Shown here one piece after another: positions 3,457-37,830 of a stretch of DNA of 64,000 nt. A model generated the notes under the pieces. It made no database searches and was not told where the DNA came from. It saw only the letters and a program-made list of their open reading frames with translations. The position numbers were made by a program, and so were the translations under genes. The stretch spans positions 372,001-436,000 of the forward strand of contig NZ_JAUSPQ010000008.1 of NCBI RefSeq assembly GCF_030655665.1, written 5' to 3'. Position 1 is the stretch's first letter. Every line of letters starts with the position of its first letter. This DNA comes from Methanocorpusculum sp. Lineage in GTDB: Archaea > Halobacteriota > Methanomicrobia > Methanomicrobiales > Methanocorpusculaceae.

Positions 3457-5664
3457 TTAAGAATTTACATCAGAATTATTTATAGACGACGGTTTTTTGG
3501 ATTCGCGTTCGAGGTGTCCCAGAAGGAAGACCGTGCCGGTTTTGTCCAGAGGCTGGTTGTTATTTCCGCATTTAGGTGAGTGGATGCAGGAAGGACAGCC
3601 ATTTTTACAGGGGCATCCTGTTACTATCTCACGGGCAAATGTGAGTATATCCGGGAAAATCTCCGTTGCTTTTTCTGCAAGACCTATGCCGCCGGCAACT
3701 CCGTCATAGATGAAGATCGTGGGGGCGGCAGTATCGCTGTGGAACGGCGTGGATACCCCGCCTATATCGGCTCTGTCACAAAGGACATAATGCGGCATCG
3801 CGGCAATCAGAGCATGTTCAACACCGTGAAGCGAACCGGCGAACGCTTCCGGTTTGATGCCGCATTCTTCGTCAATGGTTATCCAGCAGGCTTTCGTGGT
3901 AAATCTCCGCGGGGACACAGACAGTTCATGTGCTGCTATGATCTGATCATACTCAATCTCTGAGTAGCCAAGGATCTGGGATGAGACCATAACTTCGCCG
4001 TAATTTACCTGAAGATCATTGTGTCTTCTGGTTTTTTCTTTTGCAGTGATGGTGATTTCCGTCATTGAAATCGGTCTCGTGTGATAGAGATCTGATGTTT
4101 TTCTGACTCTGATGAGGCGATGTTCAGGTTCGATGGTTTCCACACGATAACGTTCACCCTGATGAAAGATGACTGCGCCCGGATATGCTTCCCTGTATGC
4201 CTGATTTTCATCCATGGTTTCAAGAATGGTTTTCCCGTTAAGTACTGACCAGGTTTTTCCTATTATCCCAAAGAACGGTGTGTTCTGTGCAGGATTTTCC
4301 ACGCCGCAGTAAACATATCCTTTCGAGGTGCTGGAAACGAGATGTTCGTTTTTGAGAACGGTGATTAAATCAGCAGCAGCATCCCCGAAGTATTTCTGGT
4401 CACGCTCGGGCTTGTACGGGAGTTCGGCTGCGGCACACTGGAGATGAGAGGAGAGAATATAGGGATTTTCGATGCCAAGGATTGCCTGTTCGCGCGGGGC
4501 ATCAAAAAATGCCTCAGGGTTTCTGGCATAATACTGATCGATCGGATTTTGTCCGGCAACAAATGTAATGACTGCGTCTTGTCCGTTTCTTCCTGCGCGT
4601 CCAGCCTGCTGAAGAACAGAGATCATAGATCCTGGAAATCCACTGATGACGACGGAGTCCAGACCGCCCACATCAATGCCGACCTCCAAAGCGTTGGTAC
4701 TGATGACCCCGGATACGTTCCCTGTTTTGAGCCTTGCTTCGATCTCTTTTCGTTCAGCCGGACGATATCCTCCGCGATAGGAGGCAATATTTCCAGCAGG
4801 CTGCTCCTCGCGGCATCGCATGGCTGTAATCTCTGCAGCATTTCTTGAACGGGTGAAGCACAATGTCTGCATTCCGGCTTTAATTTGGGAACTAACCAGT
4901 TCGGCGGTAGCAGAGATACTGCTTTTGTTTTCGGGAGAGTAGATCCGGAAGATCCGTTTTGCACGCGGTGATCCGTCACTGCTGATCTCCACAGACGGCA
5001 GACCGGTCAAGGTTTCTGCAAATGACACCGGATCCCCCAGAGTTGCCGATGATAAAATGAACTGTGGGTCTGCATCGTAAAAATTGCAGACACGCCGCAG
5101 TCTTCTCAAGAGAAGGGCCGTGTTGGATCCAAAAATACCCCGGTATCTGTGTGCCTCGTCAACAACTACAAATGAGAGATTTGTCCAAAAATCACCCCAT
5201 TTGGCTCGCCATCCAAGGATATGATGAAGTTCATACATATTTGTGAGAATGATGCGCGAGTCTGTACGGATCTTTGGCCGAAGCTCCTGTTTTGTATCGC
5301 CGTCATAGATCGCCGGTTTTGTTTTTGCATGAAGAGCAGAGTCAAATTCTGTAAAGAAGAGCAGCTGATCGCGAGTTAGGGCTTTTGTCGGATAGATGAA
5401 CAATGCGGTCGCATCTGGATCAGTGACGAGTCTTTCCAGAATGGGAAGGGAGTAGGCAAGGGTCTTCCCCGAAGCGGTCGGCGTTGTGATGATCACATTT
5501 TTTCCGTTCGATACCTGGTCAAATGTTTCTGCCTGATGAGCGTAGAGCCTGATGTTTCTCTCTGTAAGATACCGTGTGATCTTTTCGGAAATCGGAGATT
5601 TCGGTATCTGATATTTTGGAACTTGTGCCTCTTCGTATTTTATATACATATTTTTGTCATCCAT
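3457..5664 (-). CDS. mrfA: DEAD/DEAH-box helicase with DUF1998, MrfA-like
   Basis: Superfamily 2 helicase of about 735 residues. Visible motifs are Walker A TPTASGKT (61-68), DEAH box (169-172), LSSATLG motif III, and helicase C with a QQAGRAGRNG motif VI. The C-terminal DUF1998 region carries a four-cysteine cluster (CPCKNGCPSC ... KC). This architecture matches Bacillus MrfA, a 3'-5' helicase that with MrfB excises mitomycin adducts by a UvrABC-independent route. The start at 5664 is chosen because ATGGATGA makes it overlap the stop of the upstream mrfB-like gene, indicating translational coupling; the longer frame to 5721 lies inside mrfB. Function in this archaeon is inferred from family and pairing. 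Confidence 0.9.
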   Translation of the reverse strand: MDDKNMYIKYEEAQVPKYQIPKSPISEKITRYLTERNIRLYAHQAETFDQVSNGKNVIITTPTASGKTLAYSLPILERLVTDPDATALFIYPTKALTRDQLLFFTEFDSALHAKTKPAIYDGDTKQELRPKIRTDSRIILTNMYELHHILGWRAKWGDFWTNLSFVVVDEAHRYRGIFGSNTALLLRRLRRVCNFYDADPQFILSSATLGDPVSFAETLTGLPSVEISSDGSPRAKRIFRIYSPENKSSISATAELVSSQIKAGMQTLCFTRSRNAAEITAMRCREEQPAGNIASYRGGYRPAERKEIEARLKTGNVSGVISTNALEVGIDVGGLDSVVISGFPGSMISVLQQAGRAGRNGQDAVITFVAGQNPIDQYYARNPEAFFDAPREQAILGIENPYILSSHLQCAAAELPYKPERDQKYFGDAAADLITVLKNEHLVSSTSKGYVYCGVENPAQNTPFFGIIGKTWSVLNGKTILETMDENQAYREAYPGAVIFHQGERYRVETIEPEHRLIRVRKTSDLYHTRPISMTEITITAKEKTRRHNDLQVNYGEVMVSSQILGYSEIEYDQIIAAHELSVSPRRFTTKACWITIDEECGIKPEAFAGSLHGVEHALIAAMPHYVLCDRADIGGVSTPFHSDTAAPTIFIYDGVAGGIGLAEKATEIFPDILTFAREIVTGCPCKNGCPSCIHSPKCGNNNQPLDKTGTVFLLGHLERESKKPSSINNSDVNS

Positions 5665-6601
5665 AGATGGTCTCACATTCAGTTCGGAGAAGCAGAGCGA
5701 GATTTGCAACATCGAGTTCATTATGTTTCATGATCGGCGTGAGAATTGACGGGTCTCTGGTGCGGAGATAATTCTGATAATAAGCGGGGACCAGATATCC
5801 CGGCAGATCGTTCGATCTTGGCGTGTGAAGAACAAACTTTTCAACAGTACCTAAACAACAGTCAGGAATATCAGCTCCGTAAAGTCTTCTGGTGGGATAC
5901 AAAAGATCAAAATGCAGATCAGGACAGACCGTTCGCTCGCCATAATAGGATAGACGATTATTCAGATACGGCACATCAAACCCTTTCCCATTATAGGTGA
6001 CGACATGGGCATGTTTTCGAAAAGCCTGACCGGTCAGATAGAGAGCAGCAGGTTCGTCTTCGATATCACGGAGAAGATACTGAGTAACGGTAAGTTCGTT
6101 CCCTTTCCAGACACCGCACCCGAAAAGGATGATCGGGGACTGAAACATGCCAAGTGTCTCTATATCGAAATACAGAAGATCTTCTTTCGGAAGTGCATGG
6201 GAAAAACCCAGTAATAGTGGATCATTTCCTCTGTGAGCATCCTGAAAGATCCTGAAAATGTCTCCAGGATTCCCATTCTCGATAACATCTGCGATTTCAA
6301 ATGCAGATTCCCGCCGGCAGGTATGTCTTAGGTCGGTAAGATTCACCACGCCTTTTCTTCGGTACTCATAAGCACGTCTTGGACCTATCCCGGGCACCAA
6401 TGTCAGTTCACACATACACCGTTCGCGAATCCTCTCTTCTGAAATGAGATAATCCGGGTAGATCCGGGTAGTTTCCCTCGAAAGACACGTACCATCAGGT
6501 GTATCTATCTCAAAGGTACCGGGGATCTCTGCATTTCCCCTCCCACGTGTTTCTGTTTTCAGAAATACACTTTGTACGAATTCCTTACTGAGGACCTGCA
6601 T
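5657..6601 (-). CDS. mrfB: RNase H-like DEDD exonuclease, MrfB/YprB-like
   Basis: A 314-residue protein of the RNase_H_2/YprB family. A helix-hairpin-helix-like segment (about 68-92, LVPGIGPRRAYEY) precedes the nuclease domain. Catalytic acids are visible: D146 and E148 in YFDIET (Exo I), the VTYNGKGFDVPYL motif with D209 (Exo II), and HNELD with H293 and D297 (Exo III). MrfB is the metal-dependent exonuclease partner of the MrfA helicase in mitomycin-adduct repair. The ATG at 6601 is used; the frame extends to a TTG at 6616, but this has no better support. It overlaps mrfA by eight bases and lies eight bases after a small ORF, all probably expressed from the promoter at 6783-6818. Confidence 0.88.
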   Translation of the reverse strand: MQVLSKEFVQSVFLKTETRGRGNAEIPGTFEIDTPDGTCLSRETTRIYPDYLISEERIRERCMCELTLVPGIGPRRAYEYRRKGVVNLTDLRHTCRRESAFEIADVIENGNPGDIFRIFQDAHRGNDPLLLGFSHALPKEDLLYFDIETLGMFQSPIILFGCGVWKGNELTVTQYLLRDIEDEPAALYLTGQAFRKHAHVVTYNGKGFDVPYLNNRLSYYGERTVCPDLHFDLLYPTRRLYGADIPDCCLGTVEKFVLHTPRSNDLPGYLVPAYYQNYLRTRDPSILTPIMKHNELDVANLALLLRTECETIYG

Positions 6602-6609
6602 GAAGGGGA

Positions 6610-6762
6610 TCAGCAAATAAGGTAGTTCTGATCTTTTGTTGAGAGTGCATGTTCACTGTTGTCTGATGCAAACCAGCAGAGTTTGGAGAGCTGGTTTTTT
6701 CTCTGAACTACGGTGTATCCTTCTGCACGTTTTGCGATTGAGTTTAAAGCAATACTCGTCAT
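6610..6762 (-). CDS. Hypothetical 50-residue protein leading the mrf unit
   Basis: An ATG at 6762 opens 50 codons (beginning MTSIALNSIAKRAEGYTVVQ) that end with TGA at 6610-6612, eight bases before the mrfB start. It lies about 25 bases after the TATA box at 6783-6792, as expected for a leaderless first gene. A GGAG also stands 11 bases before the start. The product is mildly basic and polar with no signal peptide or known motif. I do not recognise the family. It could be a real small protein or a leader ORF; its position between the promoter and two repair genes makes it worth keeping. Confidence 0.5.
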   Translation of the reverse strand: MTSIALNSIAKRAEGYTVVQRKNQLSKLCWFASDNSEHALSTKDQNYLIC

Positions 6763-6782: not shown

Positions 6783-6818
6783 GTATATATATCCCAAACC
6801 GCGCGGTGCGATAATGCC
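6783..6818 (-). promoter_or_regulatory. mrf promoter: TATA box plus 22-bp repair-gene element
   Basis: On the plus strand gtatatatat (6783-6792) is the TATA box read leftward for the mrf unit. Four bases upstream of it lies a 22-bp element at 6797-6818 containing ccgcgcggtgcgataatg. The identical 22 bases occur at 37690-37711, in the same orientation and at about the same distance from the TATA box of radA. The element contains the palindrome ccgcgcgg. It occupies the position of an upstream activator or a BRE-region operator. Confidence 0.65.
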
Positions 6819-35936: not shown

Positions 35937-36617
35937 TTAAAAGTATTTTCGGAGAGCGTCGGCTGTTCCTTCGCCGTACGTTTTGTCCATTACCATATCG
36001 GCGGCTTGTTTTGCTTCTGGAGAGGCGTTTGCCGGAGCAATTGAAATTCCGCCGAGTTTCAGCATCGACACATCGTTGACAGAGTCTCCCGCGACCAGAA
36101 AGTCTGCGGGAGTGAGTCCCATCAGCTCTGCCAGTTTTTCGAAGGCTGCACCTTTGGTGATGTCGGGGATCTGAAGGTGAATGGCAAATCCTGTGTCGAT
36201 GACGTTGACCGGCATGTCTTTGAGTATGTCTTTTATGATCTCGGTAGGAGCATCACGGGAAAATGCGATATCTGATTCCCGGTATTTGGGGCTGAAAAGA
36301 CGCAGTTCGTCACCTTTCGGCTGAAGTTCCGCTACGATCTTTTCATAGGCAGCACGACAGATTTCCTGGTTGCCGGCAATTTGTTTTCGGCCGAGATATC
36401 CCAGACGGTACACACCGCCGTTCTCGGCGATTACGGTCCCATCCGTTCCGATCATGTGGGAGAAGGCGTCCAGAAAACAGAGGGTGTTTCCTGATGCAAG
36501 TATGATCGGGATCCCATCATCGAGGATCCTGCGCATCTCATCGACAACTTCAGTCGAAAGTCTGCGGCGTTCGTCTGTTAAGGTTCCGTCAATATCGGTG
36601 ATGAATGCCTTGGGCAT
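35937..36617 (-). CDS. Phosphoglycolate phosphatase, archaeal HAD type
   Basis: A 226-residue HAD-superfamily phosphatase that hydrolyses 2-phosphoglycolate, possibly formed during repair of 3'-phosphoglycolate ends. Motif I DIDGTLTDE (nucleophile Asp8), motif II LASGN, and motif III/IV VAGDSVNDVSML are visible, with a small cap domain between. The start MPKAFITDIDGTLT at 36617 fits the family; the longer frame overlaps radA. It lies 19 bases downstream of radA on the same strand, so co-transcription is likely. Confidence 0.88.
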   Translation of the reverse strand: MPKAFITDIDGTLTDERRRLSTEVVDEMRRILDDGIPIILASGNTLCFLDAFSHMIGTDGTVIAENGGVYRLGYLGRKQIAGNQEICRAAYEKIVAELQPKGDELRLFSPKYRESDIAFSRDAPTEIIKDILKDMPVNVIDTGFAIHLQIPDITKGAAFEKLAELMGLTPADFLVAGDSVNDVSMLKLGGISIAPANASPEAKQAADMVMDKTYGEGTADALRKYF

Positions 36618-36636
36618 GATTAAAATAGTATTGGGG

Positions 36637-37626
36637 TCAGCAGGGTTTGATACCTGCGGTTTCGACCATGAACGTTGCTTCGCCGTCGGGGAGGTTTGGA
36701 CTGTCCACAAGTCTTGCAATACGTTTGCCGGCTTTACTCTTTCTGAGATACACGCGGTAGGTGGCATTATGTCCTACAATGTTTCCACCGATCGGTTTGG
36801 TCGGGTCGCCGAAGAGAAGGCCAGGGTTTGACATGACCTGATTTGTTACTAAGGCAACCGCATTCAGATCGTCGACCAGTTTGAAGAGGTCGTGCATGTG
36901 CCGGTTGAGTTTCTGCTGTCTTCCGGCAAGGGTCCCGCGGCCGGCATACTCTGACCGGAAGAGACTGGTCAGTGAATCGATGATGATGAGCTTGACCGGA
37001 AGGCCGGATGCCGTGAGCTCATTGGAGAGTTCGCGGGCAGCGTCGATCAGAAGCATCTGGTGATCTGAAGAGTGGGCGCGTGCCACGTGGATATTTGCCA
37101 GAAACTCGTCAGGCGTCGGAATGGTATATCCTTCCGGGAGATCTGCGAGTTCGAGCCCTTCTGCCATCTGCTCTATACGTTCGGGACGGAAGGTATTCTC
37201 GGTGTCGATGTAGAGGCAACTTCCGCCAAGTCCGCCAAGTTCCTGCGGGAGCTGGCAGTTTATCGCGAGCTGATGTGCGATCTGAGACTTTCCTGAACCA
37301 AATTCACCGTAGAGTTCGGTGATCGCCTGGGATTCAAGACCGCCGCCGAATAAATCATCGATCTCGGGGACAAGGACCTTCAGTTTGAGAATATCCTGTC
37401 TGCGTGCAAGGATATCTGTCCCGGTTTTGAATCCACCGATGTCGGCCATTTCCCGGGCAGCTTTGATGATTTTCTTTGTGGTGGACTCACCGAGTTCTGC
37501 CGCCTCAGCGAGATCAACCGGCGTAGCGGTCGCAATACTTTCGACGGTGATGTAGCCTGCATCACGGAGCCGGTCAGCTGTTGCCGGTCCGACTCCCGGG
37601 ATGTCTTCAATGTCAAGTGCTGTCAT
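36637..37626 (-). CDS. radA: DNA repair and recombination protein RadA
   Basis: Archaeal RecA/Rad51-family recombinase that polymerises on single-stranded DNA and drives strand exchange. The 329 residues start with a helix-hairpin-helix domain ([19 protein letters not shown]), then a polymerisation segment (GFKTGTDIL) and the ATPase core with Walker [10 protein letters not shown] and Walker [14 protein letters not shown] sits nine bases before the ATG. Its TATA box lies at 37677-37684 and is preceded by the same 22-bp element as the mrf promoter. Confidence 0.96.
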
Positions 37627-37676: not shown

Positions 37677-37711
37677 CTTATAAACCCCTAACCGCGCGGT
37701 GCGATAATGCC
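37677..37711 (-). promoter_or_regulatory. radA promoter: TATA box plus 22-bp repair-gene element
   Basis: Read leftward, tttataagg (37677-37685) is the TATA box about 50 bases ahead of the radA start. The 22-bp element at 37690-37711 (core ccgcgcggtgcgataatg) lies about five bases upstream of it. It is base-for-base identical to 6797-6818 ahead of the mrf genes, in the same orientation. Confidence 0.65.
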
Positions 37712-37830
37712 CCGTGAACATCCAAAAATACCACTCTCACTCAGAGAGATGCCTTACCATTTTTTTCACTTCGCCCCGGAATTTTTACTGATCCGATATC
37801 CTTATACCCGTCTTTGACCCATGTATCGGT

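Follow-up and report, generated by a model that had tools for sequence, protein, structure and literature searches.

An 18-bp sequence at a fixed distance upstream of the TATA box was identified in front of radA, an mrfAB-like unit and further genes of Methanocorpusculum sp. (genome G000). Judged by its sequence context, it is almost certainly a real promoter element of a repair-centred regulon. A response of this element to DNA damage is likely.

Results

The window, i.e. the whole stretch of 64,000 nucleotides that was analysed, contains the 22-mer AACCGCGCGGTGCGATAATGCC at 6797-6818 and at 37690-37711. The exact identity of both sites, described in an earlier sequence-only reading, was confirmed. 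In promoter orientation the 18-bp core reads CATTATCGCACCGCGCGG (6799..6816 and 37692..37709). Both copies lie on the minus strand in the order element, 7-bp spacer, TATA box and gene. Chance identity had been judged very unlikely, and this holds: with up to 3 mismatches two core matches were found in the window, compared to a mean of 0.03 and never two in 100 shuffles. The same orientation at both promoters was also correctly described; the distance to the TATA box, given as four to five bases, amounts to 7 bases from the 18-bp core.

At the mrf promoter, the core is separated from the TATA box TATATATA (6784..6791) by the spacer TTTGGGA (6792-6798), without a canonical A-rich BRE. The first cistron is a small ORF of 50 amino acids (MTSIALNSIAKRAEGYTVVQRKNQLSKLCWFASDNSE..., 6610..6762), whose end overlaps the start of the gene for an mrfB-like exonuclease with RNase_H_2 fold (5657..6616). 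The DEAD-box helicase mrfA with the MrfA Zn-binding domain (3457..5721) is encoded behind it, all on the minus strand. The small ORF was found at the same place in six other genomes (G003, G007, G013, G014, G016 and G018), and its ATG follows the first base of the TATA box at a distance of about 29 bp. It probably encodes an unannotated small protein, and the transcript is probably leaderless.

At the radA promoter, the spacer TTAGGGG (37685-37691) and the TATA box TTTATAA (37678..37684) precede the radA recombinase gene (36637..37626; TIGR02236, 458 bits), likewise on the minus strand. A HAD-type phosphatase (35937..36767, minus strand), whose true start is inside the listed ORF, lies behind radA in relatives too, as its operon partner. 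Upstream of the core, CTCTCACTCAGAGAG (37734..37748) is part of a second element, CTCTCTGAGTGAGAG / CTCACTCACTGAGCACC, which was seen about 28-44 bp upstream of the core in many copies (window 37734-37748, L107-L117) of the CATTATC clade only. This may be the site of a second regulator or the upstream part of the main site.

In the complete genome G000 (1.81 Mb) the exact core occurs 13 times, the reversed-pattern control 0 times. At least 15 promoter copies were counted (13 exact, one with 1 mismatch at RPA, one with 3 mismatches in the same context), and two of them are located in the window. Many copies at unrelated positions, which the earlier reading had named as evidence against a regulon, were not observed. 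The copies stand at promoters, with a core-to-TATA distance of exactly 7 bp in 73 of the 76 retrieved copies whose TATA box could be recognised. The profile over the copies is GG-CA[TC]T[AT]TCGCACCGCGCGGTNNGGG[GA]-TTTATAT. By a rule given for Sulfolobus (PMC5817253), position -3 of a strong archaeal BRE is A and position -6 is A or G; the spacer has GGGG at this place. Hence, the BRE looks weak, with GGGG in place of the A-rich sequence. The palindrome CCGCGCGG, highlighted in the earlier reading, proved not to be the conserved part, as relatives carry CCGCACGG, CTCCGGGG and others. Conserved in the radA promoters of relatives are ACTTTCRC and the distance to the TATA box.

Among the target genes, repair genes are prominent, in line with the earlier reading. 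In G000 the element precedes radA, the 50-aa ORF followed by mrfB and mrfA, an RPA-like OB-fold protein and a radical-SAM protein (rSAM). The latter resembles TIGR03916 (putative DNA modification/repair), scoring below the cut-off of this model. In relatives Mre11-Rad50, MutS, RPA, rSAM and an XPD-like helicase are among the targets, and HsdM and HNH genes also lie downstream. Further targets in G000 are a CorA-type transporter, a DUF5677 protein, a membrane protein, a YhcG/DUF1016 nuclease behind a small RHH-like protein, and two more RHH-like small proteins; the RHH label is a reading of the sequences, for which Pfam gave no match. Four or five copies precede no clear ORF but a structured RNA. 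The regulon extends beyond repair, since roughly half of the G000 copies stand at accessory genes or non-coding RNAs. Restriction-modification genes and further genes of defence type (HsdM, Dcm with Vsr, YhcG nuclease) were seen under or beside the element at L104, L160/L182, L163, L308 and L113. Some restriction-modification or defence loci with the element sit on contigs binned as other taxa.

Directly behind three G000 copies an RNA of about 175 nt is located (L111:2822-2998, minus strand; L108:2804-2978, minus strand; L107:8644-8819, plus strand). Outside G000, one copy each was seen in G003, G013 and G016; the loci L063, L085 and L077 also carry the RNA. This RNA has two hairpins and a terminator-like hairpin with a T run, and its first 103 nt fold with a z of -3.5. 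The family is restricted to the CATTATC clade, with a cousin at L109, L053 and L080. In a covariation analysis of the family, double changes were found in just 2 of 38 pairs; thus, the fold is plausible but unproven. Possibly this RNA is a small RNA induced by damage. A second conserved and possibly structured RNA (GGCAGGGGCUAGCCCGGAGCACGAGUCCUGCGGGACGGC...) was seen downstream of the element ahead of an RHH-like gene (L115, L050, L058, L082); its fold is no better than that of shuffles (z -0.8). Either a regulatory function or an origin from an IS605/TnpB-type element is conceivable for this RNA. No match to the RNAs downstream of the element was found in Rfam.

Within Methanocorpusculum, all copies of one genome share one spelling, and the spelling differs between the clades of the genus. 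The spelling CATTATCGC is found in G000, G003, G013, G014, G016 and G086, CACTTTCGC in G002, G007, G010, G011 and G018, CACTTTCAC in G004 and G008, and CATTAACGC in G009. In the clade of G000 itself, ACTTTC is derived to ATTATC. Since unlinked sites change jointly, a single trans-acting factor is indicated.

Outside the genus the ancestral form is ACTTTCRCNCYGCRCGG. A relaxed scan with this form (1 mismatch) was positive in all 30 genomes scanned, and the control gave hardly any matches. Behind the element, radA, RPA, Mre11-Rad50 or SbcCD, radical SAM, XPD-like helicase, Xer-type recombinase and Orc1/Cdc6 paralog genes were found, as well as a cytosine methyltransferase island and several IS605-type TnpB genes; these names are readings of the sequences. 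Some matches lie inside ORFs or ahead of genes without clear function. The TnpB genes with the element in their promoters belong to the f5 genomes G056 and G091 (L278, L281, L283, L284, L286, L326), as if this transposon were tied to the damage response of its host.

Conservation in relatives, a check named in the sequence-only reading, was observed: the radA copy is kept throughout the order, with a version at the radA promoter in all six families, and in the majority of families of the phylum. With a strict rule (first base of ACTTTC, or of the derived form of the genus, 23-27 bp before the TATA box), 49 of 73 genomes of the phylum, methanogens and haloarchaea, were positive at radA. About 11 more genomes of the order have the hexanucleotide at radA with a TATA box that this rule missed. 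Outside the order the radA element is present in f7, f8, f11, f13, f14, f17, f19, f21, f22 and f23, and absent at the radA promoter in f9, f10, f12, f16 and f18. A scan of eight haloarchaeal genomes with the full footprint (3 mismatches allowed) detected radA in 8 of 8 and no other target. No match to the element was found in viral contigs.

As candidate regulator, an Orc protein was considered. Every tested genome of the order possesses the initiator Cdc6/Orc1 and, as second paralog, the divergent Orc2 (NF001624, 508 bits). In Methanocorpusculum just these two Orc proteins were found, so an Orc regulator would be either Orc2 or the initiator. The candidate Orc2 gene is located at G000:C7:25281-26219, consistent with the earlier suggestion that the regulator is not in the window. 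Orc2 is a non-initiator Orc1/Cdc6 paralog with AAA+ and winged-helix domains, can be aligned to 2qby and 2v1u along almost the entire protein, and scores well apart from the initiators. It was found in every tested family with a regular radA element and is missing in most tested families without one. Outside the order 24 genomes have both Orc2 and the radA element, 7 have neither and 4 are discordant (Fisher p=0.00017); as this test ignores phylogeny, few independent events are behind the co-occurrence. Among the discordant genomes, G216 and G243 carry ACTTTC without Orc2, and G218 and G242 carry Orc2 without the element. In G228 and G236 (f9) the Orc2-like protein is divergent and the element is absent; if these two are counted too, p=0.0009.

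Of 21 accessory Orc paralogs, 18 have the box upstream of the paralog gene itself (with at most 4 mismatches in 18 positions); for 17 of these the distance to the start codon is 54-58 bp. The divergence of this box is 0.33 versus 0.67 and 0.54 in the flanks. At the promoter of the universal orc2 gene of Methanocorpusculum the element is absent. Four accessory paralogs were seen in G060 (L403-L406), with differently spelled boxes (two alike) 56-57 bp before the starts; possibly they form a self-regulating set with diverged specificity.

Two Orc2 residues, placed by sequence alignment to solved Orc structures, differ between Methanocorpusculum clades with different boxes, which represents few independent events. 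Position 333 in the recognition helix is N in the two CATTA clades and elsewhere mostly Y, or S or V. Position 357 in the wing is occupied by K, Q or R in combination with a TCGC box; the TCAC clade has T, I or L at this position. An acceleration specific to the winged helix of Orc2 was not detected in Methanocorpusculum with the initiator as control; the whole protein evolves fast. For 18 accessory Orcs, box and winged helix showed no correlation beyond ancestry in a partial Mantel test (partial r=-0.01).

Discussion

The element, its fixed geometry, the target genes, the joint change per genome and the phylum-wide ACTTTC core at radA are demonstrated at the level of sequence. Promoter geometry, repair targets and conservation also support the DNA-damage regulon proposed in the sequence-only reading. 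The element would be the putative binding site of a trans-acting regulator controlling a regulon of recombination-repair. The bound protein would most likely be an activator helping to recruit TFB/TBP, because the promoter directly downstream of the element has a weak TFB recognition sequence (GGGG). By analogy, the regulator would most likely be Orc2, working like Orc1-2 of the Sulfolobales on ACTTTC. Damage induction, activation over repression and Orc2 as binder are what we infer; the full mechanism, a DNA-damage regulon controlled by Orc2, is the reading that we favour with moderate confidence.

The same damage regulon might have another direct binder, e.g. a winged-helix regulator or a TFB paralog, with the Orc paralogs as targets only. 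In favour of this, the accessory Orcs are targets, unlike the universal orc2, a special TFB could match the non-canonical GGGG at the BRE, and the co-evolution tests with the winged helix were negative. However, Orc2 tracks the element across families, and in the Sulfolobales the same hexanucleotide is the target of an Orc paralog (PMC9738581). Hence, we regard another binder as unlikely, yet worth considering. An Orc-type regulator would also fit an element linked to growth or replication in an S-phase-like manner and bound by Orc, without a damage response, since RPA, Orc paralogs and RadA all serve replication. This is rather improbable, as mrfAB, MutS, rSAM_link_UDG, Mre11-Rad50 and the restriction-modification genes are not replication genes, and radA1 and RPA are induced by UV in Halobacterium (PMC1224876).

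A dispersed repeat such as the end of a transposon, with a promoter on it by coincidence, has next to no probability. Some copies precede TnpB genes and accessory islands, and a few share a longer non-coding stretch (the sRNA-type copies, in the downstream sequence only). But the radA, RPA, mrfAB and rSAM copies share the promoter block alone with different flanks, and the same genes carry the element in other families with other spellings. For the core copies the reading as repeat or mobile element was rejected on account of their orthologous positions across families.

For the control of repair genes in euryarchaea, an element, its position, its target genes and a candidate regulator can thereby be named. 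No published radA motif was found in the literature searched on methanogens and haloarchaea. As haloarchaea and Methanosarcina are genetically tractable, element, targets and candidate regulator are all testable. Moreover, the Orc1-2 response of the Sulfolobales is tied to a second phylum, which suggests that relatives of replication initiators took on the role of damage regulators at an early stage of archaeal evolution. Tentatively, and with slightly less than even confidence, a damage circuit of Orc1/Cdc6 paralog and ACTTTC may be ancestral to archaea, from the Sulfolobales (Thermoproteota) to methanogens and haloarchaea (Halobacteriota). It would be the archaeal counterpart of SOS. Within Halobacteriota its most constant target would be radA, and within Methanocorpusculum new spellings would have evolved in concert.

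UV induction in Sulfolobus requires ACTTTC/ATTTTC, which is located at -44 to -39 from the TSS and is followed by a weak BRE (PMC5817253). In the Sulfolobales the ANTTTC element is bound by Orc1-2, a non-initiator Orc paralog, which also binds its own promoter (PMC9738581). Comparable to this system (DDRE), a non-palindromic ACTTTC is located upstream of a weak BRE and TATA box, a predicted non-initiator Orc1/Cdc6 paralog is present beside the initiator, and orc paralog genes carry the element, here the accessory ones and not the universal orc2 of Methanocorpusculum. In contrast, the box described here has about 18 bp with a GC-rich second half, and its ACTTTC starts 23-27 bp before the TATA box; the Sulfolobus motif is probably closer. 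The regulon seems to be centred on radA, RPA, Mre11-Rad50 and mrfAB, whereas that of the Sulfolobales is centred on pili and DNA transfer.

Archaea were reported to lack a LexA system (PMC1224876). As in the bacterial SOS response, recombinase, repair, mobile and defence genes stand under one short promoter element. The LexA operator is palindromic and lies over the promoter, whereas the element described here is asymmetric (ACTTTCRC) and upstream of the TATA box, a geometry which suggests activation. For Halobacterium NRC-1 under UV, 7-fold induction of radA1 and induction of RPA were reported, but neither a motif nor an SOS-like response (PMC1224876). The leading targets are the same, and all haloarchaeal radA promoters examined carry ACTTTC, although the haloarchaeal full footprint was detected at radA only. 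By analogy, this UV induction of radA1 and RPA is the nearest experimental anchor for a damage response of the element.
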